Shown: positions 4,650 to 26,327 of the stretch, one piece after another
Position numbering within the stretch: position 1 is the first letter of the stretch
Layout: the number at the start of each line of letters is the position of its first letter
Source of the DNA: Phyllobacterium sp. 21LDTY02-6
GTDB taxonomy: Bacteria > Pseudomonadota > Alphaproteobacteria > Rhizobiales > Rhizobiaceae
Reading direction: 5' to 3'
Assembly: GCF_023554255.2 (NCBI RefSeq)
Contig: NZ_JAMJWD020000005.1
Location: 124,001 to 188,000 of the forward strand
Length of the DNA stretch: 64,000 nt
The notes under the pieces: generated by a model
Told to the model about the DNA's origin: nothing
Databases searched by the model: none
The model's input: the letters and a program-made list of their open reading frames with translations, nothing else
Program-made: the position numbers and the translations under genes

Positions 4650-5381
4650 ATGCAACTCACGCAATTTAAGGTCATGACCTTCGATGTCGTCGGCACCTTG
4701 ATCGATTTCGAAACCGGTGTGCTCAATGCCGTTCGGGCACTTGGGGGCGAAAAGGCGGCAACCGCGACCGATGATGAGATTTTCGAGCCTTACAAGCGTG
4801 GCCGCGACAAGTTTTATGGCCGTTCCTCCGTCGCGATGAAGGATGTCTATCTCTCGCTTGCCAACGAAGCAGGCTTCAAGAATGACGATGCCACCGCCGA
4901 AGCCTTCCAGCTCGCCGTACTGCGCTGGCCCGCCTTTGCAGATTCGGTCGAGGCGCTCGCCCGGCTGCGCAAGAATTTCCGTCTGGTCGCCATGACCAAT
5001 GCGGACCGGACTGCCTTTTCCGCCTACTCCGATACGCTCGGCAATCCATTCCACGACAGCGTCACCTGCGACGAAACCGGTTGCGCCAAGCCCAATCCGC
5101 AGTTCTTTGCTTTCAACAAGGGCCGGCAGTCCGCCTTCGGCTTCAGGCAGTCGGAGATCCTGCATGTCGCCCAGAGCCAATACCACGACATTGGCGTAGC
5201 CCGCGAGCTTGGTTATACGACCTGCTGGATCGAGCGCCGTCAGGGTCAGGAGGGTTTTGGGGGTACGCCGGAGCCCAAGGTAGTGACCAAGCCCGACTTC
5301 CACTTTTCCTCCCTCGGGCAACTCGCCGATGCCGTGGATAAAGAACTCGCGGCCCGTCTCAAGACGGCAACAGCAGCCTGA
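4650..5381 (+). CDS. Type II haloacid dehalogenase-like HAD hydrolase
   Basis: The 243-residue HAD protein has nucleophile Asp12 in FDVVGTLID, motif II in AMTNAD, motif III lysine in AKPNPQ and an acidic motif IV around QYHDIG. The usual Tyr of DxYGTL in haloacid dehalogenases is replaced by Val, so true dehalogenase activity is doubtful. ATG 4650 follows AAGGA. It sits 19 bases before a FAD amine-oxidase-like gene. The same HAD + FAD oxidoreductase pairing occurs again at 22822-24807, which suggests a shared metabolic step, perhaps hydrolysis of an unstable or phosphorylated intermediate. Confidence 0.9.
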   Translation: MQLTQFKVMTFDVVGTLIDFETGVLNAVRALGGEKAATATDDEIFEPYKRGRDKFYGRSSVAMKDVYLSLANEAGFKNDDATAEAFQLAVLRWPAFADSVEALARLRKNFRLVAMTNADRTAFSAYSDTLGNPFHDSVTCDETGCAKPNPQFFAFNKGRQSAFGFRQSEILHVAQSQYHDIGVARELGYTTCWIERRQGQEGFGGTPEPKVVTKPDFHFSSLGQLADAVDKELAARLKTATAA

Positions 5382-5400
5382 CCAAAAACGAACCAGACCG

Positions 5401-6705
5401 ATGACCACCCAACCTCCCCTTCCCGACATTCAATCCCTGTGGCAGGAAACGGCTGCAAGCCGTCCTGCTTTCGATGAAATGTCCAGCGGTCATCGGTTTG
5501 ACGTTGCGATAATCGGCGGCGGATATACGGGCCTGTCGACCGCGCGCTATCTTGCGCGCCGCGGCCTGTCAGCCGTGGTGCTGGAGGCGAGCCGGATCGG
5601 CTGGGGCGCAAGCGGTCGCAATGGCGGCGTGGTGTCCGGAAAATTCCGGTTGTCGTTCTCCGACATCGCCGCACGATACGGTCTCGATACCGCACGCCGC
5701 ATGCACGACCTGGGCATCGAGTCGATCGACCATGTCGGGGAATTGGTGGAAGACTACGGCATTGCCTCTGCCGGGTTTCATCCCACAGGTTCGCTGCGCT
5801 GTGCGCACAACCAGGTTTCGCTCGATGGACTCAAGAAGGAAGTCGCGTGGCTGCACGGCACGCTTGGTGATCGCGCATGCTCCATATTGTCACCCGAGGA
5901 AATGGAGGCCGAGACCGGTTCGCGCGACTTCGTTGGCGGCATGCTGAACACGCATGGTGGCGTCATTCATCCACTGAATTTCGTGCTGGGCATTGCAGCC
6001 GGCTTGAAGGCCGCGGGCATCGCCATCCATGAGAAGGCGCCGGTCACAGCGATCCGGCGGGACCGCAACGGCGTAGTACTCGAAACTCCTCACGGCGCCG
6101 TGTCGGCCGGTCAAGTCGTGATCGCCACAAATTCCTATTCCGACCTGACGCCGGCAACCTCGGCGGTGCGAAAGTCCATCATCCCGTTCCGCTCTGCCAT
6201 GATCGCCACCGAGCCGCTGACGGACAGCGCCTATGCAAGCCTGCTGTCGCAGGACCGCAGCTACACGGAGACGCGCCGGATGATGCGATGGTTCCGTAGA
6301 GCCGGAGACCGGGTGATTTATGGTGGCCGCGGCGCCTTCGGCAAAACCGATTCCGAAGGCGCTTTTGCAGCTCTCCACAAAGCGATGGTCCGCCAGTTTC
6401 CGGAACTGGCGGCGGTATCGGTGACGCACCGTTGGTCGGGCCTGGTCGCCATGACCATGGACAGCATTCCCCATCTTGGCCGGCTCGACGACCGCGTGGT
6501 CTATGCCGTGGGCTACAACGGCACTGGCGTCGCGATGGCCTCCAACATGGGCCGCTATGTGGCGGCCATGGTTGCGGGCGAGAGCCCCGATCTCGGGCTC
6601 CTCACACGCACACCGCTGAAGCCCGTGCCCCTCTATCCCATCAGGGAGCCAGTCGTCCGGCTTGTCGCCGGCTGGTACCAGTTCCTCGATGCAATCGGGC
6701 GCTAA
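5401..6705 (+). CDS. FAD-dependent oxidoreductase, DAO family (PuuB-like)
   Basis: The 434-residue flavoprotein has a Rossmann GGGYTG motif at about residues 39-44 and DAO-family features (GWGASGRNGG; C-terminal substrate/FAD region around VGYNGTGV). The closest characterised group is gamma-glutamylputrescine oxidase PuuB and related amine oxidases, which oxidise a C-N bond to an imine/aldehyde. The upstream in-frame extension overlaps the HAD gene, so the ATG at 5401 is preferred. It lies in an operon with a Pot-type importer and aldehyde dehydrogenase. The substrate is unknown; an N-substituted amine is plausible. Confidence 0.91.
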   Translation: MTTQPPLPDIQSLWQETAASRPAFDEMSSGHRFDVAIIGGGYTGLSTARYLARRGLSAVVLEASRIGWGASGRNGGVVSGKFRLSFSDIAARYGLDTARRMHDLGIESIDHVGELVEDYGIASAGFHPTGSLRCAHNQVSLDGLKKEVAWLHGTLGDRACSILSPEEMEAETGSRDFVGGMLNTHGGVIHPLNFVLGIAAGLKAAGIAIHEKAPVTAIRRDRNGVVLETPHGAVSAGQVVIATNSYSDLTPATSAVRKSIIPFRSAMIATEPLTDSAYASLLSQDRSYTETRRMMRWFRRAGDRVIYGGRGAFGKTDSEGAFAALHKAMVRQFPELAAVSVTHRWSGLVAMTMDSIPHLGRLDDRVVYAVGYNGTGVAMASNMGRYVAAMVAGESPDLGLLTRTPLKPVPLYPIREPVVRLVAGWYQFLDAIGR

Positions 6706-6767
6706 GACCCGAAAGTCGCGTAGCAACCGGGGCATAATGTCCCCGCCAAGAAAGAGGAGAACCAGTA

Positions 6768-7808
6768 ATGGCCTATAGACTTTCCATCATCGCGCTTTCC
6801 GTATCAGCTGCGGTCTTTCTGGCTGGCACGGCTTCAGCCGAACAAATTACCTTCGTGTCGCAAGGTGGCGCTTATCAGGAGGCCCAGACCCAGGCAATCC
6901 TGGATCCGGTTGCCGAACTGCTCGGCATTACCATCAACCAGGACAGTGCCCCCGACGCATGGCCGGTCATCAAGACGCAGACAGCATCTGGCAAGGTTAT
7001 CTGGGACGTGGTCGACACCCCGGCGAAGGACTGCATACGGGGGGGCGAGCAGGGCATGATCGAGAAGCTCGACTTCTCCAAGATTCCCAATGCGGAGAAG
7101 ATGCCGGCCGAATACAAGAGCCCTTATTCAGTTGCCTATGAATTCTATTCGAGCGTACTCGCCTACAACAAGGACAAGTTCGGCGACAACGCTCCCAAAT
7201 CCTGGGCCGACTTCTGGGACGTGAAGAAATTCCCGGGCACGCGCGCTCTGCGCAACCATCCGCTGGCAACGCTCGAAGCTGCGCTGCTCGCTGACGGCGT
7301 GCCGGCCGACAAACTATATCCGCTCGATGTAGACCGCGCCTTCAAGAAGCTCGAGGAGATCAAGCCGCATGTAGCCGTGTGGTGGACCTCCGGAGCGCAG
7401 TCGGCGCAATTGCTTGCCGACGGCGAAGTCGACATGGAGATGGCCTGGAACGGTCGCGTGGCCGCGGTCGTCAAGGAAGGTGCGCCGATCGGTTATTCCT
7501 TCAACGAGGGGTTCCTGCAGTACACATCGCTTTGCGTCCTCAAGGGCGCACCCAACCAGGAAACCGCAGTAAAGTTCGTCAATGCCGCGCTGACGCCCGA
7601 TATCCAGGCGAACTTTCCGACCTATATCGACTACGGGCCCGCGAATCCGGAAGCCTACAAGACAGGCAAGATTTCCGCGGAACGCGCAGCCGAGATGCCC
7701 AGCTCACCCGAGAATGCGAAACTCCAGGTCCTTGTGTCGGACGAATGGTGGAGTTCACCGGCTGGCGAGGACGCGCAGAAGCGTTGGGCCGCGTTTATCC
7801 AGCAGTAA
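6768..7808 (+). CDS. ABC transporter substrate-binding protein, PotD/polyamine type
   Basis: The 346-residue exported protein begins with a Sec signal peptide of about 25 residues (cleavage after TASA). The body is a class II periplasmic binding fold of the spermidine/putrescine type. AGAGGAG precedes the start at good spacing. It is followed by two permease genes and preceded by the cognate ATPase three genes upstream, so it should deliver the substrate that the operon's oxidoreductases degrade. No lipobox is visible, consistent with a soluble periplasmic protein. Confidence 0.93.
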   Translation: MAYRLSIIALSVSAAVFLAGTASAEQITFVSQGGAYQEAQTQAILDPVAELLGITINQDSAPDAWPVIKTQTASGKVIWDVVDTPAKDCIRGGEQGMIEKLDFSKIPNAEKMPAEYKSPYSVAYEFYSSVLAYNKDKFGDNAPKSWADFWDVKKFPGTRALRNHPLATLEAALLADGVPADKLYPLDVDRAFKKLEEIKPHVAVWWTSGAQSAQLLADGEVDMEMAWNGRVAAVVKEGAPIGYSFNEGFLQYTSLCVLKGAPNQETAVKFVNAALTPDIQANFPTYIDYGPANPEAYKTGKISAERAAEMPSSPENAKLQVLVSDEWWSSPAGEDAQKRWAAFIQQ

Positions 7809-7831
7809 TCATCAGCCTTGGAGGCGAACTG

Positions 7832-8704
7832 ATGGCACAGTCGATACGAAACCCCGCGGAGTTGCATGAGCGGCGCGAGCAGAGGCTCATGATGATCCTG
7901 CTGGCTCCGGCCCTGCTGGTCATCACCGTGCTGCTGGTCCTGCCGCTCCTTTGGTTGGCCTGGCAGTCGATCCGGCAGGACGGCGGCTTCACGCTTGCCC
8001 ATTACGAGCGGTTTCTGACGGACTCTGTCTATTGGGTGACCTTCCTCCAAACCTTCCGCATCGCCGTGACCGTTACCCTGATGACTGTCATCCTCGGCTA
8101 CCCCGTCGCCTATGTGGCGGCGGGTCTGCCGCAACGTTGGAGCATCCTTGTTCTTGCGATGGTTCTGCTGCCATTCTGGACTTCGGTACTTGTGCGCGCC
8201 TATGCCTGGCTGATCCTGCTGCAGCGCAATGGCATCATCAATTCGGTTCTGACCGGGTCGGGGCTGATCGACGAGCCGTTGCGCCTGGTCAACAACGAGT
8301 TCGGCACGGTCATGGCGACGATCCATATCCTGCTGCCTTTCATGGTGCTGCCGCTCTATGCGACGATGAAGAAGATCCCGGGCGAGCTGACCATGGCGGG
8401 CGCCAGCCTCGGCGGCTCGCCCCTGCATGTCTTCCTGCGCGTATTCCTGCCGTTGTCACTTCCAGGCATGATCGCGGGCATGGTGTTGGTCTTCGTGCTG
8501 ACGCTCGGCTTCTATATAACACCGGAACTTCTGGGAGGTGGGCGCACCTACATGGTGTCCATGCTGGTATCGCGCAACATCGAGGTCTACAACGAATGGG
8601 GCGCCGCCTCGTCAATCAGCGTGGTGCTGATGGTCTGCGTCTTTCTGGTCTTCCGCCTTGCGAGCCTGCTCATTCCGTTCGAACGCATCATGGGAACGAG
8701 GTGA
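7832..8704 (+). CDS. ABC transporter permease, PotB-like
   Basis: The 290-residue inner-membrane protein has about six transmembrane segments, the first at about residues 20-45, and the MetI-type permease domain with a conserved loop near MKKIPGELTMAGASLGGS that contacts the ATPase. The start at 7832 follows TTGGAGG. It pairs with the permease immediately downstream to form the channel of the Pot-type importer. Confidence 0.93.
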   Translation: MAQSIRNPAELHERREQRLMMILLAPALLVITVLLVLPLLWLAWQSIRQDGGFTLAHYERFLTDSVYWVTFLQTFRIAVTVTLMTVILGYPVAYVAAGLPQRWSILVLAMVLLPFWTSVLVRAYAWLILLQRNGIINSVLTGSGLIDEPLRLVNNEFGTVMATIHILLPFMVLPLYATMKKIPGELTMAGASLGGSPLHVFLRVFLPLSLPGMIAGMVLVFVLTLGFYITPELLGGGRTYMVSMLVSRNIEVYNEWGAASSISVVLMVCVFLVFRLASLLIPFERIMGTR

Positions 8705-8707
8705 CGC

Positions 8708-9505
8708 ATGAACCGTTCAAAGTTCCTTCTTTACGGCTTCGTGGCCCTCATCCTTGCCTGGCTGATGATACCGGTCCTGATTATTCTGCCAATGTCCTTT
8801 TCCGGTGCGCGCTTCCTCGCATTTCCCCCACCCTCCTGGTCGCTGAGGTGGTACGAATCCTATCTGGGCAGCGCCGCCTGGATGCAGGCGACCCGAGTCA
8901 GCCTGACCGTCGCTGTCTGCAGCGCCTTCATCTCGACCATCTTCGGCACGGCTGCGGCCTATGCCCTGAACCTCACGCAATCGCGCCTGGTGCGTAGCCT
9001 GCAGGCTCTGCTGCTGCTGCCATTGATCGTACCGATCGTCATCACCGCCGTCGGCATCTTCCTCGTCTATGCGCAGGTCGGATTGCTCGCTTCCATGACC
9101 GGGCTCATCCTCGCCAATGTGATGCTGGGTTTGCCCTATGTCGTCACCTCCGTCCTGGTCGGGCTTCGCAAGTTCGACCATACCCAGGAAATGGTGTCGC
9201 GCAGCCTGGGCATGAACCGGTGGCGCACCTTCTTTGCCGTCACTCTGCCGCAGATCCGGCCGAGCGTGATATCCGGCATGCTGTTCGCCTTTATCTCGGC
9301 GATCGACGAAACCGTTGTCGCGCTTTTCATCTCTGGTGGCGAAAACCAGACTCTGACCAAGAAAATGTTCACCGCGCTTCGGGACGAGATCGATCCGACG
9401 ATCGCCTCGATCAGTTCATTGCTGACGACGGTTTCCTTCATCCTGCTGATGCTGGCGGCGCTGAATGCGCGTAATACCGAGCGCTCCCAGGGGCGGGCGA
9501 CATGA
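8708..9505 (+). CDS. ABC transporter permease, PotC-like
   Basis: The 265-residue protein has about six transmembrane segments and the EAA-like coupling loop (SRSLGMNRWRTFFAVTLP). It starts three bases after the upstream permease stop, with GAGGTG as ribosome binding site, and overlaps the next gene by ATGA. It is the second channel subunit of the Pot-type importer. Confidence 0.93.
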   Translation: MNRSKFLLYGFVALILAWLMIPVLIILPMSFSGARFLAFPPPSWSLRWYESYLGSAAWMQATRVSLTVAVCSAFISTIFGTAAAYALNLTQSRLVRSLQALLLLPLIVPIVITAVGIFLVYAQVGLLASMTGLILANVMLGLPYVVTSVLVGLRKFDHTQEMVSRSLGMNRWRTFFAVTLPQIRPSVISGMLFAFISAIDETVVALFISGGENQTLTKKMFTALRDEIDPTIASISSLLTTVSFILLMLAALNARNTERSQGRAT

Positions 9506-11196
9506 TCGTCGACCACCTGATCCTGGGTGGAGGGTCCGCTGGCTGCGTGCTGGCTGCCCGGCTCTCGGCCGATCCGAGGCGAAGGGTCGTTCTGGTCGAA
9601 GCCGGGCGCAACATCTCGGCAGACGATATCCCCGACGATATCCGCAGCCGCTATCCTGGACGCGCCTATCTCGACACGCGCAATATCTGGTGTGAATTGA
9701 CGGCCATGATGGGTTATGCCCGATCCAATGCCGCGCCCCGTTCATCGCGGCGCTACGAGCAGGCACGACTGCTGGGTGGCGGTTCGGCGATCAATGCGCT
9801 GATGGCCAATCGCGGGGCACCGGCGGACTATGCCGATTGGCAAGGGTTGGGGGCAGAGGGCTGGGACTGGGACGATTGCCTACCCTATTTCCTCAAGATC
9901 GAGGCCGACAGGGATTTCCGCGGCCCGCTGCACGGACAGGACGGGCCGCTCACCATCCGCCGCGTCTCCGATGACAAGATTTCACCCTTCGTCGATCGCG
10001 TCATGAAGACGCTTGACCGGCGCGGCCATCCGATCAAGCCCGACCAGAACGGTCCCTGGGAAGACGGCGTCTTTCGCGGTGCAGTCGCCGTCAGCGATCG
10101 CGGCGAGCGGATGCCGACCTCGCTGGCCTACCTGACGCCCGATGTCCGCAAACGGACCAATCTCCGCATCATCACCGAAAGCGTCGCAACTCGGATCCTG
10201 TTCGACGGCCGTCGTGCCACGGGGGCGCAACTGTCGGGCGCAACGATGGAGACCATCCATGCGGCAGAAGTGATCATCTCTGCCGGCGCGATCCATTCGC
10301 CGGCCTTGCTTCTGCGGTCCGGCGTTGGCCCGGTCCGCGATCTCGCACCCAAGGGCGTCGATGTCGTGGCCTCCCGCGAGGGTGTCGGACGCAACCTGAT
10401 GGAACATCCCTCCATCGCCGTCGCAGCCTACCTGCCGCCCCATATGCGGGTACGCGACGAATCCGAACATCACGAACAGGCCGTCTGGCGCTTTTCCTCT
10501 GGCCTCGACGGCACCCCAAGCGGCGACATGCACGCCGCTATCCTCTCGCGGTCGGGCTGGCATTCCATCGGGCAGCGTCTAGGGAGCCTGTTTTTCTGGG
10601 TCAACAAATCCTACTCCCGTGGCGTGGTGAAACTCGCCTCGACCAACCCGACATGCGAGCCGGACGTCGATTTCAGGATGTTGAGCGACGAGCGTGACCT
10701 GATCCGGCTCAAGCTTGCCGTTCGCATGGGCGCCGAAGTGCTGTCCGATCCCTTCATGAACGGCCATCGCGGTACGGCCTTTCCCTCCAGTTACTCGCCG
10801 CGTGTCGCGAAGGTGGCCGTACCCGGCGCGTGGAATGCGCTGCAGCGCGGCATTCTTTCGGGCTTGCTCGACGTAGCAGGGCCGTTCCGCCCTGCCCTTG
10901 TCCATTCGGCGATCACGTTGGGAACGACGATGAACGGTCTATTGACCGACGACGATGCTTTAACGGAGTTCGTACGGCGCCATGTCGGCGGCACGTGGCA
11001 TCCATCGGGGACGTGCCGCATGGGATCGGCCGACGATCCGATGGCGGTGACGTCACCGACGGGACGAGTGTACGGCATCGAGGGATTGCGGGTCTGCGAT
11101 GCCTCACTGATGCCCTCCATTCCATGCGCCAACACCAATATGCCCACGATCATGATCGCAGAACGGGTCGCCGATTTCATCCTGGCCGGCCGCTGA
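9502..11196 (+). CDS. GMC-family FAD alcohol dehydrogenase (choline dehydrogenase-like)
   Basis: The 564-residue flavoprotein has the FAD-binding GGGSAGCVLAARL near the N-terminus, the GMC signature region GGGSAINALMANRG and the catalytic His in GGTWHPSGTCRMG near the C-terminus, followed by the NTNMPT segment. The family oxidises alcohols such as choline to aldehydes using membrane or quinone acceptors. It overlaps the permease by four bases and is followed 12 bases later by an aldehyde dehydrogenase, so an alcohol-to-acid sequence is likely. An amino alcohol would fit the importer. Confidence 0.93.
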   Translation: MIVDHLILGGGSAGCVLAARLSADPRRRVVLVEAGRNISADDIPDDIRSRYPGRAYLDTRNIWCELTAMMGYARSNAAPRSSRRYEQARLLGGGSAINALMANRGAPADYADWQGLGAEGWDWDDCLPYFLKIEADRDFRGPLHGQDGPLTIRRVSDDKISPFVDRVMKTLDRRGHPIKPDQNGPWEDGVFRGAVAVSDRGERMPTSLAYLTPDVRKRTNLRIITESVATRILFDGRRATGAQLSGATMETIHAAEVIISAGAIHSPALLLRSGVGPVRDLAPKGVDVVASREGVGRNLMEHPSIAVAAYLPPHMRVRDESEHHEQAVWRFSSGLDGTPSGDMHAAILSRSGWHSIGQRLGSLFFWVNKSYSRGVVKLASTNPTCEPDVDFRMLSDERDLIRLKLAVRMGAEVLSDPFMNGHRGTAFPSSYSPRVAKVAVPGAWNALQRGILSGLLDVAGPFRPALVHSAITLGTTMNGLLTDDDALTEFVRRHVGGTWHPSGTCRMGSADDPMAVTSPTGRVYGIEGLRVCDASLMPSIPCANTNMPTIMIAERVADFILAGR

Positions 11197-11208
11197 TGGG
11201 AGAGATCA

Positions 11209-12633
11209 ATGCAAAGACATCTTAAATTCTACATCGACGGCGCTTGGGTCGACCCGATCGGCGACCAGCGGCTGGCGGTCGTCGATCCTGCGACGGAGCA
11301 ACCCTTTGCCGAGATCGCCATGGGGTCGGCGGCCGATGCCGAGCGCGCCATCGTTGCCGCCCGCCATGCGTTCGCGACCTTCTCCCTGACCACGCACGAA
11401 ATGCGCCTGGCGCTGCTAGAGCGCATCGTCGCAATCTTGAAACGGCGTAATGACGAGATAGGCGATGTCATAATGCGCGAAATGGGTGCGCCCCGCCGTA
11501 TGGCACGGGAGGAGCAGGTCGGGATCGGCATCGCTCATTTCGAACAGACTATCAGCGCCATGCGAAATTTCGCCTTCGAGTACATGCAGGGCACCACCCG
11601 GATCGTGCATGAGCCGGTCGGCGTTGTCGGCATGATCACGCCGTGGAACTGGCCGATAAACCAGATAGCCTGCAAGGTGGCGCCGGCGCTCGCCTCCGGC
11701 TGCACGATGGTGCTCAAGCCATCCGAGATCGCCCCGGTCAACGCCATCCTGTTTGCGGAAGTTCTGCATGAAGCGGGTGTGCCTGCGGGCGTGTTCAACC
11801 TGATCAATGGCGATGGCCCGACCGTGGGCGCGGTGCTCGCCAGCCATCCCGAAATCGACATGATCTCCTTTACCGGCTCTACCCGCGCCGGGATTTCCGT
11901 GGCGCAGGCAGCGGCGCCGACAGTAAAGCGCGTTCACCAGGAACTTGGCGGCAAGTCGCCGAACATCGTGCTCAGAAGCGCCGATCTCGACGTGGCGGTT
12001 CGCGCCGGTATTGCCAAGTGCTTTGCCAATTCCGGCCAGTCATGCAATGCACCGACACGCCTGCTGGTGCCGGCGGAAAGCATGGATCGGGCAATCGGCT
12101 TGGCTCGGCAGGCCGCCGAGGCGGTTCGCGTCGGCGCGCCGGCCGATCCGGCGACCGATATTGGTCCCATCGTCAGCCGGATGCAGTTCGACAAGGTACA
12201 GAGTCTCATTCGCAAGGGCGTCGAGGAAGGCGCCGAACTCGTGAGTGGAGGACCAGGCCGACCGCCACATCTCAATGCCGGCTACTACGTCCGGCCTACG
12301 ATCTTCGCCCGCGTTACCAACGACATGACTATCGCCCGCGAGGAAATATTCGGCCCCGTCCTGTCGATCCTGGGCTACTCAAGCGAGGATGAAGCGGCCG
12401 AGATCGCGAATGACACGCCCTATGGCCTGGCGTCCTATGTCCAGGGCGAAGCCGGGGAGGCGCGCGCTTTCGCACGACGACTGAGGACAGGCATCGTTCG
12501 TCTGAACAGCTCGGCCTGGGACGGTGCGGCTCCCTTCGGCGGTTACAAGCAGTCCGGCAATGGTCGCGAATATGGCAAGTTCGGGCTTCACGAGTTCACG
12601 GAAGTCAAGGGAATCGTCGGTTTCGGCGACTGA
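11209..12633 (+). CDS. NAD(P)-dependent aldehyde dehydrogenase
   Basis: The 474-residue enzyme has the standard landmarks: PWNWP, FTGSTRAG for cofactor binding, general base Glu in ELGGKSP and catalytic Cys279 in SGQSC. It oxidises an aldehyde to a carboxylate. GGGAGA precedes the start. As the last gene of the plus-strand operon it should use the aldehyde made by the GMC dehydrogenase or the FAD oxidase upstream. No residue pattern fixes the substrate. Confidence 0.93.
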   Translation: MQRHLKFYIDGAWVDPIGDQRLAVVDPATEQPFAEIAMGSAADAERAIVAARHAFATFSLTTHEMRLALLERIVAILKRRNDEIGDVIMREMGAPRRMAREEQVGIGIAHFEQTISAMRNFAFEYMQGTTRIVHEPVGVVGMITPWNWPINQIACKVAPALASGCTMVLKPSEIAPVNAILFAEVLHEAGVPAGVFNLINGDGPTVGAVLASHPEIDMISFTGSTRAGISVAQAAAPTVKRVHQELGGKSPNIVLRSADLDVAVRAGIAKCFANSGQSCNAPTRLLVPAESMDRAIGLARQAAEAVRVGAPADPATDIGPIVSRMQFDKVQSLIRKGVEEGAELVSGGPGRPPHLNAGYYVRPTIFARVTNDMTIAREEIFGPVLSILGYSSEDEAAEIANDTPYGLASYVQGEAGEARAFARRLRTGIVRLNSSAWDGAAPFGGYKQSGNGREYGKFGLHEFTEVKGIVGFGD

Positions 12634-14048: not shown

Positions 14049-14119
14049 GGGCGGAACTCCGGAGTTTCCATGTATCCTAGAGCAGCTTATGCCGTGCCAG
14101 GCGTCGCAATAGCTGTTTT

Positions 14120-14757: not shown

Positions 14758-14776
14758 AGCCCGGCAGCTGGTGCAG

Positions 14777-17295: not shown

Positions 17296-17297
17296 GA

Positions 17298-18248
17298 TTA
17301 TCGTAGCCTCGGGTTCGATGCGATGGCGATAAGGTCGGCAAGGGTGATGAGCAGGAGATAGCCCAGGCAGAAGATCATCGCGCAGGCCTGTATCAGCGGC
17401 AGGTCGCGCGTTGCGACCGCATCCAGCATCAGCTTGGCTATGCCGGGATAATTGAAAATGGTCTCGACGATGATGACGCCGCCAAGCAGGTAGGAGAGCG
17501 AAAGCGCCACCGCATTGACGATGGGGCCGAGCGCATTCGGCAGGGCGTGGACCAGCACCATGCGGCTGCGCGAGGCACCTTTCAGCAACGCCATTTCGAG
17601 ATAGGGCGCATCCAGCGTTTCGACGACGGCGGCGCGCGTCATGCGGATCATCTGCGCCGAAATCACGAAGCTCAAGGTGATGACCGGCATGGCGAATGCC
17701 TTCAGGAGGCCGCTGAACGACGTCACCTCATTGGCCATGGAAAGAGCGGGCAGCCAGCCGAGATAGACCGCGAATACGATCACCGCGATCGTCGCGACCA
17801 TGAATTCCGGCACGGAAATCACCGAAATCGTGATGATCGACACCAGGCGGTCGTAGATCGTGCCGCGCATGATCGCCGCCGTGATGCCGAGAAACAAGGC
17901 GATCGGCACCGAGATGCCGGCGGTGATGCCCGCCAGCCTGAGCGAATTCACCAGGCGGCTGCCGATGAGATCGGCGATCGGAACATTATTGGTGTAGGAG
18001 ACGCCAAGGTCGCCGGTGAAGAGGTTTCCAAGCCAGTAGATGAAGCGCAGGAACGCCGGCTGGTCGAGGTTCATCGCCGCGCGAAGCCCGGCGACCGCCT
18101 CCGGCGTTGCCGCCTGCCCCAGAAGTATCTCCGCCACGTCGCCCGGCAGCATCTCGGTTGCGAAGAAGATCGTGAACGCGACAATGAGCAGCGTCAGCAG
18201 CGCAATGACGAGGCGTTTGGCGATGAGACTCAACAATGGAGATTTCAT
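17298..18248 (-). CDS. ABC transporter permease, DppB-like
   Basis: The 316-residue membrane protein has an N-terminal anchor at about residues 10-30, a DppB/OppB-type TPD region and five more membrane segments. It contains the family-typical pattern around NLDQPAFLRFIYWLGNLFTG and the C-terminal FNYPGIAKLMLDAV. It lies 79 bases downstream of the binding-protein gene and two bases before the DppC-like gene. Confidence 0.94.
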   Translation of the reverse strand: MKSPLLSLIAKRLVIALLTLLIVAFTIFFATEMLPGDVAEILLGQAATPEAVAGLRAAMNLDQPAFLRFIYWLGNLFTGDLGVSYTNNVPIADLIGSRLVNSLRLAGITAGISVPIALFLGITAAIMRGTIYDRLVSIITISVISVPEFMVATIAVIVFAVYLGWLPALSMANEVTSFSGLLKAFAMPVITLSFVISAQMIRMTRAAVVETLDAPYLEMALLKGASRSRMVLVHALPNALGPIVNAVALSLSYLLGGVIIVETIFNYPGIAKLMLDAVATRDLPLIQACAMIFCLGYLLLITLADLIAIASNPRLR

Positions 18249-18327
18249 GATGCACAGCCTGCAACTCGGAAAGGGGAAACTGCTCGGACACCGTCATAGC
18301 GGCGTCCGGGCGCGGCAATGATACCGG

Positions 18328-19938
18328 TCAGGCTTCCAGCCAGGCGTATTCGGCGAAGGCAAAGCCCATCATCCCGCCCAGCGGATTCGGCTCCAGGCCG
18401 TGCAGCTTCGGCGAGATCGCATCGACATTCGACATGAAGACCGGGATGACCGTGCCGGCTTCGTTGGAAACCATTGCCTGCATCTCGCCGTAAATGTCCT
18501 TGCGCTTCGCCTCGTCCAGCAGACCGCGCGCTTCCAGCAGCATGGAGTCGAACTTTTCGGATTTGTACTGGCTTTCGTTCCAGGGCGCGTCGGATTTGTA
18601 CAGCAGCGAAAACAGGATGTCGGGGGTCGGGCGCGCATTGATATTGCCGTAATGCACCGCGTCCTTCAGCCAATGGTTCGACCAGTAGCCATCCGAGGGC
18701 ACGCGGTCGATGACGATCTTCTGGCCGATGGACGACGCGGCCTGCTGCAGCACCATCGCATAATCGAGCGAGGAGGACGCCGCCTCGGCCGCGGTAATAT
18801 GGATCTCCTCGCCGAGTACACCGGCCTTTTCGAGCAGCGACTTGGCGCGCTCGGGATCGTATTCGCGCTGCTTGAGTTCGGCATTGTAGTAGCGGCTCGT
18901 ATCCGGCACCGGATGATCGTTGGCGATCTCCGCCAGCCCGCGCAGCACCGATTTCTGGATGATCTCGCGGTTGGTGAGATATTTGAAGGCCTCCGCGACC
19001 CCGGCCTTGTCGCCCGGCGTCATGTCCAGCCGGACGTTGAGATTGGTATAGGTGCCGAGCTTCGAGATGAACAGCTTGGCCGCCGGATTGTTCTGGAGCA
19101 CGCGCAGCGAACGCGGATTGAGATTGGCGGCAAGCTGGATATCGCCGGAAAGCACCGCATTCATGCGGGCGCTCTCATCGGAAATCGCAAAGAACTCGAA
19201 TGAGTCGAGATGCGGTCCGTTGTTCTTCCAGTAGTTTTCGTTGCGCGCCGCAAGCGAGCGAACGCCCGGCTGGAACTCCTTGCAGACGAACGGACCCGTG
19301 CCATTGCCCTTGGAGAAGTCGGTAGTTGCATTTGCAACTATCATGAAATGATGCATGGCAAGGATGGTCGGAAGATCCGCATTCGGGCTGTCGAGCGTGA
19401 TCTCGACCGTCGTATCATCGATCTTCTTCGTCCCGGAAATCTGCTTTGCGAGCGCATTGACCTTGGAACCGACGGCGGGATCGAGGTGCCGCTGCAGCGA
19501 AAAGACGACGTCATCGGCGGTGAGGGATTTGCCGTCATGGAAGGTCACGCCCTTGCGCAGCTTGACCGTCCATGTCCTGGCGTCGGCACTTTCGATGCTT
19601 TCGGCCAGTTCCATCTGGATCTGGCCCTTGCCGTCGAGGAAGGTCAGGCGATTGTAGAAGGCGCAGCAGCGAACATAGTCGGTGGCGTTCGACGCCTTGG
19701 CCGGATCGAGCGTATCGGCGGTGGAGGCGCTGAACCCCGCGGCCTTGACGAAGCCGCCCTTGACGGGGGTCTGCGCAAGTGCCGACGTCGCCCGGCCGAG
19801 AATGGATGCGCCGGCAATGGCGCCAACGCCTCCGAGCATCATCATCTGAAGCAGCTCGCGCCGGGTCGCACCGCGCCGGATCGCATTTTCAATCATCCGG
19901 TCATCGGAGGATGTCCAATCGGTAATCTTCTCGTTCAT
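18328..19938 (-). CDS. ABC transporter substrate-binding protein, peptide/nickel type (SBP family 5), Tat signal
   Basis: The 536-residue protein has a long N-terminus with a twin-arginine motif (Arg26-Arg27 in TRRELLQ), a hydrophobic core and an ALAQ cleavage region, so it is probably exported folded by Tat. The mature part is a family 5 solute-binding protein of DppA/OppA type (DTLDPAKASN near the start). AAGGGGAA precedes the start. It heads the importer operon (then DppB, DppC, fused ATPase). Substrates of this family range from peptides to opines and nickel; the neighbours suggest an amine or acylated amino compound. Confidence 0.93.
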   Translation of the reverse strand: MNEKITDWTSSDDRMIENAIRRGATRRELLQMMMLGGVGAIAGASILGRATSALAQTPVKGGFVKAAGFSASTADTLDPAKASNATDYVRCCAFYNRLTFLDGKGQIQMELAESIESADARTWTVKLRKGVTFHDGKSLTADDVVFSLQRHLDPAVGSKVNALAKQISGTKKIDDTTVEITLDSPNADLPTILAMHHFMIVANATTDFSKGNGTGPFVCKEFQPGVRSLAARNENYWKNNGPHLDSFEFFAISDESARMNAVLSGDIQLAANLNPRSLRVLQNNPAAKLFISKLGTYTNLNVRLDMTPGDKAGVAEAFKYLTNREIIQKSVLRGLAEIANDHPVPDTSRYYNAELKQREYDPERAKSLLEKAGVLGEEIHITAAEAASSSLDYAMVLQQAASSIGQKIVIDRVPSDGYWSNHWLKDAVHYGNINARPTPDILFSLLYKSDAPWNESQYKSEKFDSMLLEARGLLDEAKRKDIYGEMQAMVSNEAGTVIPVFMSNVDAISPKLHGLEPNPLGGMMGFAFAEYAWLEA

Positions 19939-20255: not shown

Positions 20256-21632
20256 TCAATCGCGCATGGCCGCGCGGACATCCTCGTCGGCAAGCGTCTG
20301 GTCCAGCGTCAGGCGCGTGCGTTCGATGATGGCGTCAATGTCCTCGTCCGTACAGCAAAGCGGCGGCGCATAGCCGAGCACGCCATTGGCGAAGGCGCGG
20401 ATCACAAGGCCATTGTCCCAGGCGCGGTCGAAGATGCGGCGCGCCGGATCGGCATCCGCCGGCAATGGCGTCTTGCGCTCCTTGTCGGTGACGAGTTCGA
20501 TCGCCGCCAGCATGCCACGGCCGCGAATATCGCCGACAAGCGGATGATCCGCCAGCGACTGGAGCCCCGCCATCAGGCGCTTGCCGGCCTTGCGGCCGTT
20601 TTCAAGCAGCCCGGCCTCGTAGAGACGCAGGCATTCGAGACCGATTGCGGCGCTGACCGGATGCGCGGAATAGGTGTAGCCATGGCCAACAGCCGCTTTG
20701 CCGGCACCGTCGGCAATCGTATTGTAGACATGTTCCGACATGAAGACGGCACCCATCGGCGCGTAGCCGGATGTCAGCCCCTTGGCGACGGTGATGAAGT
20801 CCGGAACGATGTCCTCGTCTTCGCAGGCAAAGAGCGGCCCGGTGCGGCCAAAGCCGGTGATGACCTCGTCGGCGATGAAAAGCACGTCGAACTCCTTGCA
20901 CACCGCGTGCATGGCCTTGAGCCATCCTGCCGGCGGCACCAGGACACCGCCCGAGCCCTGTATCGGCTCGACGTAGAAGGCGGCGACGCGTTCCGCGCCG
21001 AGTTCCTCGATCCTGGCGCGCAATGCAGCCGTCGATGTATCGATGATCGCTTTGGGGTCGGTGCCTGCCGGATTACGGTAGACATAATGCGAGGGAATCT
21101 TGTGCTGCCAGTCATAGGGCACGCCGAAACCCGCGTGAAAGGCCGGGAGGGCCGTGAGGCCGGAGCCCGCCGTCGAGGAGCCGTGATAGCCATATTCGAC
21201 CGAGATGAACTGGTCCTTCTGCGGCTTGCCCCTGGCATGCTGGTAATAGCGGATGAAGCGAATGGTGCTGTCGACGGCGTCCGATCCGCCGAGGGTAAAA
21301 TAGACATGGTTCAGATCGCCCGGCGCCCTATCTGCCAGTTCGGATGCAAGGCGGATGGCCGGTTCCGAGCCCAGGCCGAAATAGCCGGTGGCATAGGGCA
21401 ATTCGCGCAATTGCTTCGCGGCGGCTTCGACGATGCTGTCCTGGCCATAACCGGCATTGACGCACCAGAGGCCGGCGAAACCATCGAGCAGGCTGTGGCC
21501 CGAAGCGTCGGTGACGGTTGCACCCTTGCCGGATTGCAGCACCCGCACACCCGCGGCTTCATGGCCGCGATAGGAGGAAACCGGATGCACCAGATGGGCG
21601 CGGTCGAGTTCGATCAATGAATTGCTGAGCAT
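20256..21632 (-). CDS. Class III aminotransferase
   Basis: The 458-residue PLP enzyme has ADEVITGFGRTG for cofactor binding and Schiff-base Lys284 in VAKGLTSG. It belongs to the same superfamily as the enzyme at 871-2205 but to a different subgroup (putrescine/omega-amine:pyruvate type). The start at 21632 follows GGAGA; the frame upstream to 21911 is out-of-frame GNAT sequence. It is encoded 22 bases after the GNAT gene, presumably co-transcribed. The product aldehyde could feed the GabD-like dehydrogenase at 24856. Confidence 0.93.
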   Translation of the reverse strand: MLSNSLIELDRAHLVHPVSSYRGHEAAGVRVLQSGKGATVTDASGHSLLDGFAGLWCVNAGYGQDSIVEAAAKQLRELPYATGYFGLGSEPAIRLASELADRAPGDLNHVYFTLGGSDAVDSTIRFIRYYQHARGKPQKDQFISVEYGYHGSSTAGSGLTALPAFHAGFGVPYDWQHKIPSHYVYRNPAGTDPKAIIDTSTAALRARIEELGAERVAAFYVEPIQGSGGVLVPPAGWLKAMHAVCKEFDVLFIADEVITGFGRTGPLFACEDEDIVPDFITVAKGLTSGYAPMGAVFMSEHVYNTIADGAGKAAVGHGYTYSAHPVSAAIGLECLRLYEAGLLENGRKAGKRLMAGLQSLADHPLVGDIRGRGMLAAIELVTDKERKTPLPADADPARRIFDRAWDNGLVIRAFANGVLGYAPPLCCTDEDIDAIIERTRLTLDQTLADEDVRAAMRD

Positions 21633-21654
21633 GATATTCTCCGATTCTACCTGT

Positions 21655-22494
21655 TCAACCGAGAGCCTGATTGACGAGTGCATAGGTCTGGTACGGCTCG
21701 CTCGCTGCGGCCCGCACGTCGGCCCCTCGCCGCATGGTGACGCCGCCGCCGACATGCGAGAGCCCATGTTCGGTGAGCCATGGCGCCAGATTGGTGGACC
21801 TGTCCGTGTCCACGCGCACGAATTCGCCCGCATGGTTCGAAAGCACGAAACTGATGAGCGCACGAGCCTCGGCAGCGTCTCTCGCAACCACCGGGCCGAT
21901 GACGAGGCCACGGCCGAAGCGACGAACCGCGGCGAAGGCTTCGACCTGACCTTCCGGGCGAATGACCGCGAACCGCGCGCGCTCGTCGAGCAGCCGCATC
22001 AGTTCGGAGCGGTCATACTTCTTCGCCAGCCGGTCGAGCACGCGGATGCGCTCATGATCGCCGGTCGTTGCCCATGTAACATTGTCCGGTGCTTCGACTT
22101 TCGACGCCACGCCCTGGTGCTGCGCGATTTCGCCGGTGGCGACAAAGCCCAGCTTTTCATAGAGCGGCAGCCCGTCCTTGGTCGCAACGAGCAGGCATGT
22201 CCGTCCGCCCGCGGCATCGAGGGCTGCCTGCATGAGCTTCCGCCCCAATCCGCGGCCCCGCATCGCCTCGTCCACGATAACCATGTTGATGGTGGCGATG
22301 TCTTCGCCGAAAGGCGTCATCATCGCCGTACCGACCACGCGCCCATCCTCGAATGCGGCCACGCCGGTGCTGAGGGCCAGCATCATCGCCCAGTCTTCGC
22401 GCCGGTGCGGCCAGCCCGCCTGCCGGGACAGGGTGACGGCGGCAGCGAGGTCTGCCGATGCCAACTCCCCGATGGTAATTTGCGTCGTTGTCAT
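21655..22494 (-). CDS. GNAT-family N-acetyltransferase, two-domain
   Basis: The 279-residue protein has an N-terminal GNAT domain with the acetyl-CoA motif RGRGLGRK (about 79-86), followed by a second C-terminal domain of about 130 residues like that of YitH-type acetyltransferases (FGRGLVIGPVVA, GEFVRVDT). It is clearly paralogous to the protein at 31475-32353. GGAAGAAGG lies before ATG 22494. It is upstream of the aminotransferase in the same direction and divergent from the HAD + FAD pair. It may acetylate an amino intermediate; the ArgE-like deacetylase at 30163 could reverse this. Confidence 0.9.
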   Translation of the reverse strand: MTTTQITIGELASADLAAAVTLSRQAGWPHRREDWAMMLALSTGVAAFEDGRVVGTAMMTPFGEDIATINMVIVDEAMRGRGLGRKLMQAALDAAGGRTCLLVATKDGLPLYEKLGFVATGEIAQHQGVASKVEAPDNVTWATTGDHERIRVLDRLAKKYDRSELMRLLDERARFAVIRPEGQVEAFAAVRRFGRGLVIGPVVARDAAEARALISFVLSNHAGEFVRVDTDRSTNLAPWLTEHGLSHVGGGVTMRRGADVRAAASEPYQTYALVNQALG

Positions 22495-22821
22495 GCCTTC
22501 TTCCAGATCGCTTCTCTCCAGGAACAAATTAGGCTGCCGGGAGCAGCAGTTCCTCCCGACCAGCACGTCCGGGCAGCGCAATTTCACTGTCCTTCCGCGC
22601 CAGCGCCGCATCTTATGCCGCGACAATCACCAAACCGTTCCGGGACGCCGCGCCGATGCGTATCCGACGAAGGTTCGGACGCAACTCTCTGCCAAAGCTG
22701 CAGTCAGATACGAAACAATCTGCTTCGGCTGCGGGTCATTGCAGTGATTAGTCCATCCGCCGGCAATTATTATGGATCGGGAGGGCACCGCAGTGTCCGC
22801 AAGGCTTAGGAAGGATCAGAC
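22495..22821. promoter_or_regulatory. 327-base divergent promoter region, GNAT / HAD genes
   Basis: No gene is visible. Promoters for the leftward GNAT-aminotransferase unit and the rightward HAD-FAD unit must lie here. ACGAAGGTT near 22666 loosely matches the ACGAAGATT arm found at 31374-31382, a weak sign of a shared regulator. An A/T-rich patch is at about 22765-22780. Confidence 0.4.
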
Positions 22822-23490
22822 ATGGCCCAGTTCAGACCGAAATACATCACCTTCGATTGTTATGGCACGCTGACGAATTTCCAGATGTCGCAGGCCGCCT
22901 GCGAGCTCTATGGCGACCAGCTCGACGAGCAGGCGATGCAGAAGTTCAATGCCGACTTTACCGCCTATCGGATGGATGAGATACTCGGCGACTGGAAGCC
23001 CTATGACGAGGTTATCCACAATGCGGTCGAGCGGACGTGCAGGAAGCACGATGTGGCTTTCAATGCGGAAGACGCGCGCAAGGTCTATGAGAAGGTTCCG
23101 ACCTGGGGACCGCATCCCGACGTGCCCGCCGGCCTTGCCAGGGTCGCGAGGGAAATCCCGCTCGTCATCCTCTCCAACGCCATGAACGAGCAGATCCATT
23201 CCAATGTCGAAAAGCTCGGCGCGCCGTTCCACGCCGTCTATACGGCGCAGCAGGCACAGGCCTACAAGCCGCGCTTCAAGGCTTTCGAATATATGCTGGA
23301 CCAGCTCAATGCCCGGCCGGAAGACATTCTCCACGTCTCCTCGTCGTTCCGCTATGATCTGATGTCGGCACATGATCTCGGCATCAGGAACAAGGTCTGG
23401 GTCAACCGTGGCCACGAGCCGGCAAACCCCTATTACGGCTATACCGAGATCAAGGATATTTCGGGATTGCCGGGCGTCGTCGGGCTTTAA
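22822..23490 (+). CDS. Type II haloacid dehalogenase-like HAD hydrolase
   Basis: The 222-residue HAD protein has nucleophile Asp12 in the canonical FDCYGTL, motif II in ILSNAMN, motif III Lys in YKPRFKAF and motif IV around SSSFRYDLMSA. Unlike the copy at 4650 it keeps the Tyr typical of L-2-haloacid dehalogenases. It is followed 39 bases later by a FAD oxidoreductase gene, repeating the arrangement of region A. Whether it dehalogenates or acts as a phosphatase cannot be decided from sequence. Confidence 0.92.
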   Translation: MAQFRPKYITFDCYGTLTNFQMSQAACELYGDQLDEQAMQKFNADFTAYRMDEILGDWKPYDEVIHNAVERTCRKHDVAFNAEDARKVYEKVPTWGPHPDVPAGLARVAREIPLVILSNAMNEQIHSNVEKLGAPFHAVYTAQQAQAYKPRFKAFEYMLDQLNARPEDILHVSSSFRYDLMSAHDLGIRNKVWVNRGHEPANPYYGYTEIKDISGLPGVVGL

Positions 23491-23529
23491 CCGCGCGTTC
23501 CACGAGCGCCGCCACGGAGAGAAAAGCCG

Positions 23530-24807
23530 ATGCAGTTCAAGCCCTATTGGCACGATACGACGCCGCCTTTCACCGGCGCGGAGCCGAACCCGCCGGAAGG
23601 GCATTATGACGTCGCGGTGATCGGCGGCGGCTTTACCGGATTGTCGGCGGCACTGCATCTGGCCAAAGCGGGCACCCGCGTCGCCGTCTTCGAGGCGGGG
23701 CATGTCGGCTCCGGCGCGTCGGGTCGCAATGGCGGCCATCTCAACAACGGCCTGGCGCATAGTTACATCGCCGCCAAGGAGCATCTCGGACCGGAGCGCG
23801 CCCGGGCGCTCTACAAGGCGTTCGACATTTCGGTCGATACGGTCGAGCGCATCGTTCGGGAGGAGAATATCGATTGTTCCTTCCGGCGCGCCGGCAAGCT
23901 GAAACTTGCGTCAAAACCGGCGCATTTTGACAGTCTCGCGCGCAATTTCGAGGCTATTCACGCCGAAGTCGATGCCGATACGGCGCTGCTGCGACGCGGC
24001 GATCTCGTCGGCGAGGTCGGCTCGAACGATTTCCACGGTGGGATGCTTTCGCGCAAAAGCGCCATGATGGATATGGGCCGCTATGTCGGCGGCCTGGCGA
24101 CCGCAGCCGCCCGGCATGGAGCGGTGATCTTCGAAGGCACGCCCGTAACCGAGCACAAGACCGACAGCGGCGGCCATCGGATCGTCACGCCGCGCGGCAG
24201 CATCACGGCTGACAGCGTCATCCTCGCGACAGGCGCCTATACGGATGCCGGCTTTTCATATTTTCGCAATCGCATCATCCCGGTCGGGAGCTTCATCATC
24301 GCCACGCGCCCGCTGACGCAAGCCGAAATCGCGGCGACCATGCCCGGCAACCGCACCTATGTGACCTCGATGAACATCGGCAATTACTTTCGCCTCGCAC
24401 CCGATAATCGCATGATCTTCGGCGGTCGCGCACGCTTTTCGGCAACATCCGACCAGCGCTCGGACGGCAAGAGCGGCGCGATCCTGCGCGCCAACCTCGT
24501 CCGGCTCTTTCCGCATCTGGCCGATGTCGAGATCGACTATTGCTGGGGCGGCCTCGTGGACATGACGCAGGACCGGTATCCCCGCGCGGGCTTTGCCAAC
24601 GGCGTCTGGTATTCCATGGGCTATTCCGGCCATGGCGCGCAGATGTCCACGCAGATGGGCATCCATCTGGCGGACGCCATCCTCGGGCGCGGTGACCGCA
24701 ATCCGTTCGCCGGCCTGGAGTGGCCAGCCATCCCCGGCTATTCCGGCAAGCCCTGGTTCCTGCCGCTGGTCGGCCTCTACTATAAATTCCTCGACAGGGT
24801 GCAATGA
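23530..24807 (+). CDS. FAD-dependent oxidoreductase, DAO family (PuuB-like)
   Basis: The 425-residue flavoprotein has Rossmann VIGGGFTGLSAALHLA near residue 34, the GSGASGRNGGHLNNG segment and a C-terminal YSGHGAQMSTQMG region. It resembles the protein at 5401-6705 and gamma-glutamylputrescine oxidases. It is second in a two-gene unit with the HAD protein, ending at a strong terminator (24826-24845). It probably oxidises an imported amine to an aldehyde that the convergent dehydrogenase genes could use. Confidence 0.92.
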   Translation: MQFKPYWHDTTPPFTGAEPNPPEGHYDVAVIGGGFTGLSAALHLAKAGTRVAVFEAGHVGSGASGRNGGHLNNGLAHSYIAAKEHLGPERARALYKAFDISVDTVERIVREENIDCSFRRAGKLKLASKPAHFDSLARNFEAIHAEVDADTALLRRGDLVGEVGSNDFHGGMLSRKSAMMDMGRYVGGLATAAARHGAVIFEGTPVTEHKTDSGGHRIVTPRGSITADSVILATGAYTDAGFSYFRNRIIPVGSFIIATRPLTQAEIAATMPGNRTYVTSMNIGNYFRLAPDNRMIFGGRARFSATSDQRSDGKSGAILRANLVRLFPHLADVEIDYCWGGLVDMTQDRYPRAGFANGVWYSMGYSGHGAQMSTQMGIHLADAILGRGDRNPFAGLEWPAIPGYSGKPWFLPLVGLYYKFLDRVQ

Positions 24808-26310: not shown

Positions 26311-26327
26311 GGTTTCCTCGTTTCTGC

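Follow-up and report, generated by a model that had tools for sequence, protein, structure and literature searches.

L-Azetidine-2-carboxylate hydrolase (A2CH; Pseudomonas A2CH, PDB 3smv/8ywo/8yvw; Aspergillus AzhA) is a member of the haloacid dehalogenase-like (HAD) proteins that opens a cyclic amine. According to the PDB titles, entry 8ywo was soaked in (S)-azetidine-2-carboxylic acid, and entry 8hp7, 56% identical to 8ywo, was trapped with (2R)-4-amino-2-hydroxybutanoic acid. According to a paper on Aspergillus nidulans, the hydrolase works together with the gamma-aminobutyrate (GABA) pathway and with a GNAT acetyltransferase that helps to detoxify azetidine-2-carboxylate. Other described systems of relevance are the type II L-2-haloacid dehalogenases (L-DEX, DhlB), the FAD oxidases PuuB (gamma-glutamylputrescine oxidase) and AmaA (pipecolate oxidase), the opine catabolism islands, and a carnitine locus of Acinetobacter. 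In the current study, we compare these systems with a 64,000-nt stretch of the Phyllobacterium sp. 21LDTY02-6 genome (contig NZ_JAMJWD020000005.1, positions 124,001–188,000; hereafter the window), in which a HAD gene is twice followed by a gene for an FAD oxidase of the DAO family. The two pairs, HAD1–DAO1 and HAD2–DAO2, stand where a first-pass annotation of the window had placed them (4650–6705 and 22822–24807), with all four genes on the plus strand and gaps of 19 and 39 bp, respectively, and both fall within a single island of about 31 kb (862–32350). We propose, at a probability of roughly 0.45, that the pairs are the catalytic cores of two linked modules that serve the catabolism of plant-derived secondary amines.

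Kinship of the paired enzymes

The solved proteins closest to HAD1 are A2CH entries: 3smv/8ywo/9v14 head the PDB sequence search (E 2.2e-49), and HAD1 is 39% identical to A2CH over the full length. The AlphaFold model of HAD1 (pLDDT 87.4) aligns with 8ywo at Z 28.1 over 233 residues, compared with 21.4 and lower for dehalogenases (L-DEX, 21.4). Structure alignment and residue comparison reveal the A2CH fold and equivalents of the catalytic Asp12, Thr16, Lys152, and Asp185; HAD1 retains Asp12, Thr16, Asn117, Lys147, Ser176, and Asp180, and thus shares with A2CH the nucleophile Asp12, the Thr, Lys, and Asn, and the motif-IV Asp. In an unrooted maximum-likelihood tree of 74 HADs, HAD1, A2CH, HAD2, and a further set termed HADIA come out as four separate, supported groups; a supported branch divides A2CH from HAD1 and HADIA, which are joined there by six additional sequences, with HAD1 outside the A2CH group (support 99/94 and 99/97 for the separate groups) and HAD2 distant. 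HAD1-type sequences are 32–39% identical to 3smv, compared with 50–62% for A2CH-proper. On this evidence, HAD1, a predicted hydrolase, is a divergent sister of the azetidine-2-carboxylate hydrolases; where these have Tyr14 and Glu52, both HAD1 and HADIA carry Val and Arg, respectively. The earlier statement that a HAD protein has no established role in amine oxidation was therefore too strong, since the nearest solved relative of HAD1 opens a cyclic amine. The HAD phosphonatase of aminoethylphosphonate breakdown is another precedent for a HAD that acts on an amine. A2CH-proper genes themselves (signature FDCYGTLIDWE or FDVYGTLIDWE) are scattered across the order (G039, G126, and 20 other genomes, L083–L104), mostly without a DAO neighbor; HAD1 and HADIA, by contrast, belong to catabolic clusters.

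HAD2 is 26% identical to HAD1. The description "type II haloacid dehalogenase-like", which the first-pass annotation gave to both HADs, suits HAD2, which passes the curated model TIGR01428 (196 vs. a cut-off of 125.4 bits), but not HAD1, which fails it (112.5). Across the genome, seven proteins match this model, led by HAD2 (195.9 bits), HAD1 (112.8), and a third protein (44.3). Like L-DEX and DhlB, HAD2 carries Asp, Thr, Ser-Asn, and Lys, which we take to be the dehalogenase catalytic set, and Asp12, Thr16, Arg50, Ser118, Asn119, Lys149, Ser175, and Asp179 are invariant among ten HAD2 sequences; however, it is only 22% identical to L-DEX (model alignment), and its gene context is that of amine catabolism, not haloacid use. 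In the 74-HAD tree it forms its own clade on a long branch, apart from both A2CH and HAD1, so that its kinship with A2CH is only distant. Foldseek, applied to a weak structure model (pLDDT 66.4), puts the cis-epoxysuccinate hydrolase CESH[L] first (E 1e-11 vs. 3e-10 for A2CH), whereas A2CH-type chains rank above CESH in a sequence search.

DAO1 and DAO2 each carry the DAO domain and align with most of E. coli PuuB at 31% identity over the greater part of their own sequence, so that "PuuB-like", as they had been called, is apt at the level of the superfamily (Table 1). They are 33% identical to one another. The top NCBIfam model for both is AmaA (NF050086), yet they score only 196 and 190 against a cut-off of 600. 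In a quick unrooted tree of 62 FAD oxidases, each forms its own clade, that of DAO1 lying with PuuB and other oxidases and away from DAO2.

Many HAD proteins are phosphatases, and HAD1 and HAD2 could accordingly be phosphatases or FAD/FMN-related housekeeping enzymes that serve the oxidase and have no role at the substrate level. We regard this as very improbable indeed: the second Asp of the DxD motif is lost (replaced by Val in both HAD1 and HADIA and by Tyr or His in HAD2), the nearest solved relatives are C–X/C–N hydrolases, and, of the six PuuB-like DAOs in the genome (E 1e-30), two adjoin HAD1 and HAD2, whereas the other four adjoin none of the seven TIGR01428 matches.

Conservation of the pairing

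The adjacency recurs across the order. It was counted in a sample of 150 genomes, in stretches of up to 20 kb, with orthologues defined by at least 58% (HAD2) or at least 60% (HAD1) identity; HAD2 orthologues were found in 14 of these genomes besides that of the window. A same-strand DAO gene lies within 300 bp of 11 of the 14 HAD2 and nine of the 12 HAD1 orthologues (the three HAD1 misses all belonging to one family), compared with one of 22 A2CH-proper genes. The latter are the A2CH-proper genes among the 50 fetched of 58 HAD1/A2CH-type places outside the window's genome, eight weaker ones having been left out, and are thus not every such gene; two "other" HADs, four "DVVGT-other" HADs, one distant HAD2, and 11 HADIA sequences were kept apart from the comparison. 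When plasmid loci chosen by hand before the count (three HAD2, one HAD1) are added, the figures become 14/17 and 10/13, which differ from 1/22 with Fisher p values of 6e-7 and 2e-5, respectively, kinship among the loci being ignored. If a DAO gene within 2 kb on either strand is accepted, they are 15/17, 10/13, and 2/22. The lone same-strand A2CH case (L090) involves a DAO with a weak score (57), while L104 has a divergent DAO gene at 176 bp; among the DVVGT-other HADs, a DAO gene within 300 bp was found in one of four.

Beyond the order sample, the HAD2–DAO2 pair is kept in 77 of 80 named loci, which are the best 80 of 587 matches and close relatives (77–87% identity). In a phylum search, DAO1 adjoins HAD1 in all eight HAD1-type loci (one being the window's own, three shared with the order sample, and four new), and the HAD1 pair persists in several families within the order and also in one genome from outside the class. 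HAD2 is uncommon in the class sample (7/288 other genomes), with an adjacent DAO gene in four of these seven loci. Among hand-picked plasmid loci beyond the main counts, a DAO gene adjoins the HAD gene in L215, L216, L218, L220, and L221, and not in L217 or L219. Second HAD2 copies lie near the first in four loci of Sinorhizobium/Ensifer, Rhizobium giardinii, and Azospirillum (L173, L182, L168, L141), some of them without an adjoining DAO2.

The HAD tree and the quick DAO tree, though neither is rooted, each set the two copies apart; a single duplication of a ready-made pair is thus unlikely, and the pairing probably arose at least twice. Because members of separate HAD and DAO clades are paired, the pair is kept in most orthologues, and it survives a change of importer, HAD and DAO probably carry out linked steps, as the first-pass annotation had argued; we consider this well supported. 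The pairing could instead be a functionally meaningless accident of inheritance within one island, given that the 80 named HAD2 loci are closely related and that many copies sit on plasmids. Such an accident seems very improbable in view of the separate clades from which the paired HADs and DAOs come, the persistence of the HAD1 pair in several families and outside the class, and the 21 of 22 fetched A2CH relatives that have no same-strand DAO gene within 300 bp.

The island and its distribution

The first gene run of the island (3521–12633, plus strand) comprises a PotA/D/B/C-type importer, HAD1, DAO1, a GMC oxidoreductase, and an aldehyde dehydrogenase; the second cluster (12723–32350) holds HAD2, DAO2, a third FAD oxidase (DAO3), an Lrp regulator, a Dpp-type importer, the aminotransferase AT2, an SSADH-type aldehyde dehydrogenase, a TTC-type dehydrogenase, and further enzymes (Table 1).

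Table 1. Genes of the Phyllobacterium island, in window coordinates, with the evidence for each assignment.
Feature	Position	Strand	Evidence
AT1, class III aminotransferase (AptA-like)	862..2205	+	NF052567, 712 bits vs. cut-off 500
LysR regulator, module 1	2322..3302	-	Pfam HTH_1 + LysR_substrate
PotA-type ATPase	3521..4612	+	TIGR01187, 369.9 vs. cut-off 355.6
HAD1, A2CH divergent sister, signature FDVVGTLIDFE	4650..5381	+	PDB, structure model, tree, residues
DAO1, PuuB/AmaA-superfamily FAD oxidase	5401..6705	+	Pfam DAO 2.2e-70
Substrate-binding protein, module 1	6768..7808	+	PDB matches; SBP_bac_8 (Pfam)
PotB-type permease	7826..8704	+	NF007044, 172.7 bits, under cut-off 348
PotC-type permease	8708..9505	+	Position, ORF, and counterparts in related loci only
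GMC oxidoreductase	9502..11196	+	Pfam GMC_oxred_N + _C
ALDH1, aldehyde dehydrogenase	11209..12633	+	Sequence; orthologous locus L039 annotated aldehyde dehydrogenase
DAO3, third FAD oxidase, glycine/sarcosine-oxidase-like	12723..14048	-	Pfam DAO 3.8e-74; under every NCBIfam cut-off
Lrp/AsnC regulator	14281..14757	+	86% to S. meliloti gene annotated Lrp/AsnC
Dpp-type double ATPase	14777..16441	-	Annotated S. meliloti orthologue
Dpp-type permease C	16438..17295	-	Annotated S. meliloti orthologue
Dpp-type permease B	17298..18248	-	Annotated S. meliloti orthologue
Dpp/Nik/Opp-type substrate-binding protein	18328..19938	-	PDB matches
AT2, class III aminotransferase	20256..21632	-	NF004625, 854 vs. 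cut-off 729
GNAT acetyltransferase, start uncertain	21655..22503	-	Pfam Acetyltransf_1 + _18; longer frame 21655-22626
HAD2, type II HAD	22822..23490	+	TIGR01428, 196 vs. 125.4
DAO2, PuuB/AmaA-superfamily FAD oxidase	23530..24807	+	Pfam DAO 9.8e-71
SSADH-type aldehyde dehydrogenase, proposed malate-semialdehyde dehydrogenase	24856..26331	-	TIGR01780, 683 vs. 646
TTC-type tartrate/D-malate dehydrogenase	26328..27371	-	TIGR02089, 579.8 vs. 470.4; PDB 3flk
ALDH2, aldehyde dehydrogenase	27368..28840	-	Top model aminobutyraldehyde dehydrogenase, under cut-off
Cupin_3 protein (matched span)	28869..29216	-	71% to S. meliloti cupin (Pfam on the latter)
GhrA-like 2-hydroxyacid dehydrogenase	29230..30153	-	Pfam 2-Hacid_dh_C; 66% to S. 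meliloti homologue
ArgE-like M20 deacylase	30163..31287	-	Pfam M20; 63% to S. meliloti protein passing TIGR01892
Second GNAT acetyltransferase (matched span)	31469..32350	+	45% to S. meliloti homologue

Nine of the 80 named HAD2 loci have flanks too short for content counts; in the remaining 71, AT2 is present in all, SSADH in 64, TTC in 61, Lrp in 57, and DAO3 in 55, and HADIA lies within the cluster in 65 (in S. meliloti, where strain 1021 has the cluster on pSymA, between the binding protein and the aminotransferase). The window's Dpp cluster lacks HADIA and has HAD1 next door; the same holds for Ochrobactrum quorumnocens, where the order of the modules differs and the modules are adjacent. 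Three other loci without HADIA have the module-1 LysR gene adjoining the cluster (L106–L108), and three full-flank loci (L128, L151, L168) have neither HADIA nor a module-1 neighbor in view. Among the order genomes, a HAD1/A2CH-type HAD (E 1e-20) occurs in all 14 that bear HAD2, in three of them only as A2CH-proper, compared with 33 of the 135 others. One 20-kb stretch (L259) combines HAD1–DAO1, HAD2, DAO2, DAO3, and a Pot-type importer, and another (L256) holds HAD2, DAO2, DAO3, AT2, and a HAD1-like gene. By these counts and gene orders, the two modules are linked.

The surroundings of HAD1 were surveyed in 16 stretches of 18–25 kb, matches being taken at 40% identity or more. A LysR gene stands beside HAD1 in 12 of the 16, and no counterpart of AT1 was found in any of them. 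A class III aminotransferase does lie near both pairs in the window, as first annotated; only the association of AT2 with module 2 is conserved, that of AT1 with module 1 is not. Two HAD1 loci carry SSADH and TTC (L065, L066), L066 also having GhrA and cupin genes, and L067 carries cupin and SSADH; most others have only the oxidase, the regulator, and in part the importer, and three have none of these.

Rhizobium, Sinorhizobium, Mesorhizobium, and Azospirillum carry the island, and variant forms of it occur in Paraburkholderia and on plasmids of Klebsiella. On a Klebsiella IncFIB plasmid (L040, 2459–20666), a compact HAD2–DAO2–Dpp–DAO3 run lies beside arsenic resistance genes and an IS3-family transposase. 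In O. quorumnocens (L215, 57–5227), the Dpp transporter genes are present a second time beside the HAD2 cluster (82–90% identical, with a binding protein diverged to 48%). On R. johnstonii pRL12 (L221, 12620–18955), a threonate/tetronate operon (kinase, isomerase, dehydrogenase, aldolase, LacI, MFS) sits inside the HAD2 cluster, between the GNAT gene and HAD2, and a similar tetronate gene set follows HAD1–DAO–tartrate dehydrogenase in Aminobacter (L218).

Elsewhere in the window, an M20 peptidase, a penicillin amidase-type protein, and a second Dpp/Opp-type importer (34681–44300) suggest a catabolic operon for amide compounds beside the island, and an AcrB-type RND efflux pump is encoded on the minus strand at 54548–57694. 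No promoter-like match was found in 22300–25200, and no tRNA gene in the window.

Candidate substrates and a putative route

The two importers belong to different families, as had been noted before. The module-1 binding protein (SBP_bac_8) matches PDB entry 4i1d best (8e-163; ligand not stated), followed by the mannopine-binding MotA (1e-68) and a GABA sensor (7e-66), with chains named for polyamines lower (4eq7, 3e-56; 8jv1, 1e-41; PotD, 1e-18), while the module-2 protein matches 5u4o, HbpA, AgaA, DppA, and NikA, a general peptide/opine/nickel type. Polyamine catabolism is not favored by these matches. Opine catabolism islands (octopine/nopaline/mannopine) resemble the present island in combining Dpp/opine-type and mannopine-like importers with FAD amine oxidases. 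In the Paraburkholderia variant (L216, 19474–22378), the place past the importer where Klebsiella holds DAO3 is occupied by a soxA-like Pyr_redox/BFD-type flavoprotein, a 2Fe-2S protein, and a DAO only 25% like DAO3, a set that presumably corresponds to the make-up of opine oxidases. We know, however, of no HAD in opine operons, and we take their downstream enzymes to differ from the C4 enzymes of the island.

Those C4 enzymes find a parallel in Acinetobacter. SSADH and TTC both score above curated cut-offs, and malate semialdehyde and D-malate are their predicted substrates. In the carnitine locus of Acinetobacter (CntA/B, malate-semialdehyde dehydrogenase, tartrate dehydrogenase), an oxygenase is reported to yield malate semialdehyde, and predicted semialdehyde and tartrate dehydrogenases occur together in one locus, as in the island; a Rieske oxygenase is present there, and oxidases and HADs are found here instead. 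The tetronate genes of R. johnstonii and Aminobacter show a C4 hydroxy-acid theme again.

In the route that we propose, the importer would take up an opine-like or azetidine-type amino compound, and the FAD oxidases would cleave N-alkyl (C–N) bonds. The Asp nucleophile of the HAD would attack the carbon beside a carboxylate and expel the leaving group without phosphate chemistry. By analogy with A2CH, such hydrolytic displacement is the most likely role of the HAD, probably in the opening of a cyclic amine: a strained C–N ring would be opened to yield a 2-hydroxy acid of four carbons, for example (2R)-4-amino-2-hydroxybutanoate. An aminotransferase or oxidase would then strip the amine to give malate semialdehyde, SSADH would oxidize this to D-malate, and the TTC enzyme would convert D-malate (or tartrate) into pyruvate-level products. 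Chemistry of a similar kind may be envisaged for HAD2, although HAD2 may be another kind of hydrolase.

Several observations weigh against this proposal. Tyr14 and Glu52 are each at least 95% conserved in A2CH; Val replaces the former in HAD1 and HADIA, and Arg replaces the latter in HAD1, HADIA, and HAD2, with Glu being retained by four other DVVGT-type HADs. Because of these replacements, plain azetidine-2-carboxylate is probably not the sole substrate, and a different one is likely. Judging from the tree and from its weak model (pLDDT 66), A2CH is not clearly a nearer relative of HAD2 than dehalogenases or cis-epoxysuccinate hydrolases are. SSADH and TTC are found in only four and two, respectively, of the 16 HAD1-type stretches, and the Klebsiella cluster lacks AT2, TTC, and HADIA in the 20.7 kb read. 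The module-1 importer may, after all, be one for polyamines. An adjoining DAO gene is missing in three of the 12 HAD1 and three of the 14 HAD2 loci of the order and in three of the seven class-level HAD2 loci; HAD2 has no adjoining DAO in L259 or in B. pyrrocinia (L217), nor has the HAD1-like gene of Acidovorax (L219), and HADIA never lies within 300 bp of a same-strand DAO gene (0/11).

It is conceivable, though doubtful, that the HADs genuinely dehalogenate 2-haloacids, or that they detoxify a by-product (halogenated or reactive) or a toxin of the plant, as protective partners of the oxidase off the main route. The passage of HAD2 through the type II dehalogenase model fits this idea, as does the Arg that HAD1, HADIA, and HAD2 have at the A2CH Glu position, and a rhizosphere paper names halogenated plant antimicrobials and an R. 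leguminosarum dehalogenation route. The idea does not accommodate HAD1, which fails the model and is nearest to an amine-ring hydrolase, and it leaves unexplained both the recurrent SSADH/TTC/AT2 set of the HAD2 loci and the two apparent unions with an oxidase.

Less probable still, HAD2 could be cis-epoxysuccinate hydrolase-like and yield a dihydroxy C4 acid; the route would then end in tartrate and hydroxypyruvate by way of TTC and GhrA, and the amine on which the oxidase acts would be one linked to the C4 unit. The TTC enzyme matches a tartrate dehydrogenase model, the top model of the S. meliloti GhrA-like protein is GhrA (under its cut-off), and tetronate genes occur in the R. johnstonii cluster and beside the Aminobacter HAD1/DAO/tartrate dehydrogenase operon. 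The tetronate genes may nevertheless form an independent operon, and the first rank of CESH[L] in Foldseek is a small lead obtained with a poor model and is at odds with the order of hits in the sequence search.

Degradation of ectoine or hydroxyectoine was also considered, the cues being the deacetylase, the class III aminotransferase, and Lrp, together with threonine-dehydratase and ornithine-cyclodeaminase neighbors in S. meliloti. This candidate was set aside: the S. meliloti M20 enzyme passes an acetylornithine deacetylase model, and, to our knowledge, HAD and DAO proteins have no place in that pathway.

As to the compound consumed within the proposed amine catabolism, the R. johnstonii 3841 cluster lies on pRL12, and counting gene tags from repA and the TRAP genes (taken as pRL120498-500) places its four transporter genes at about pRL120608-611. 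On this count, the alfalfa-induced transporter pRL120609-10, named in a rhizosphere transcriptome paper, is probably the importer of the cluster. This favors a plant compound as the substrate, and it speaks to some degree against compounds that every root contains, nicotianamine among them. An unlikely but specific possibility is that the island consumes plant azetidine metallophores or their relatives, whether nicotianamine, compounds of the mugineic-acid type, or an alfalfa-specific N-substituted azetidine. An opine-like tri-acid would then be imported, two or three FAD oxidases would trim it to C4 aldehydes and an azetidine acid, and the new HAD clade would open the azetidine ring to (2R)-4-amino-2-hydroxybutanoate, leading to D-malate and pyruvate. 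Among the titles and abstract openings listed in literature searches, none dealt with this island, and none of those listed for nicotianamine and mugineic acid named bacterial genes for their breakdown.

Taken together, the coherent gene set connects amine catabolism with a subgroup of HADs that is poorly understood and suggests a specific reaction for this subgroup, and it provides candidate genes for the degradation, in the rhizosphere, of azetidine or opine-like compounds from plants. If metallophores were indeed the substrates, root bacteria could strip the plant of its own metal chelators.

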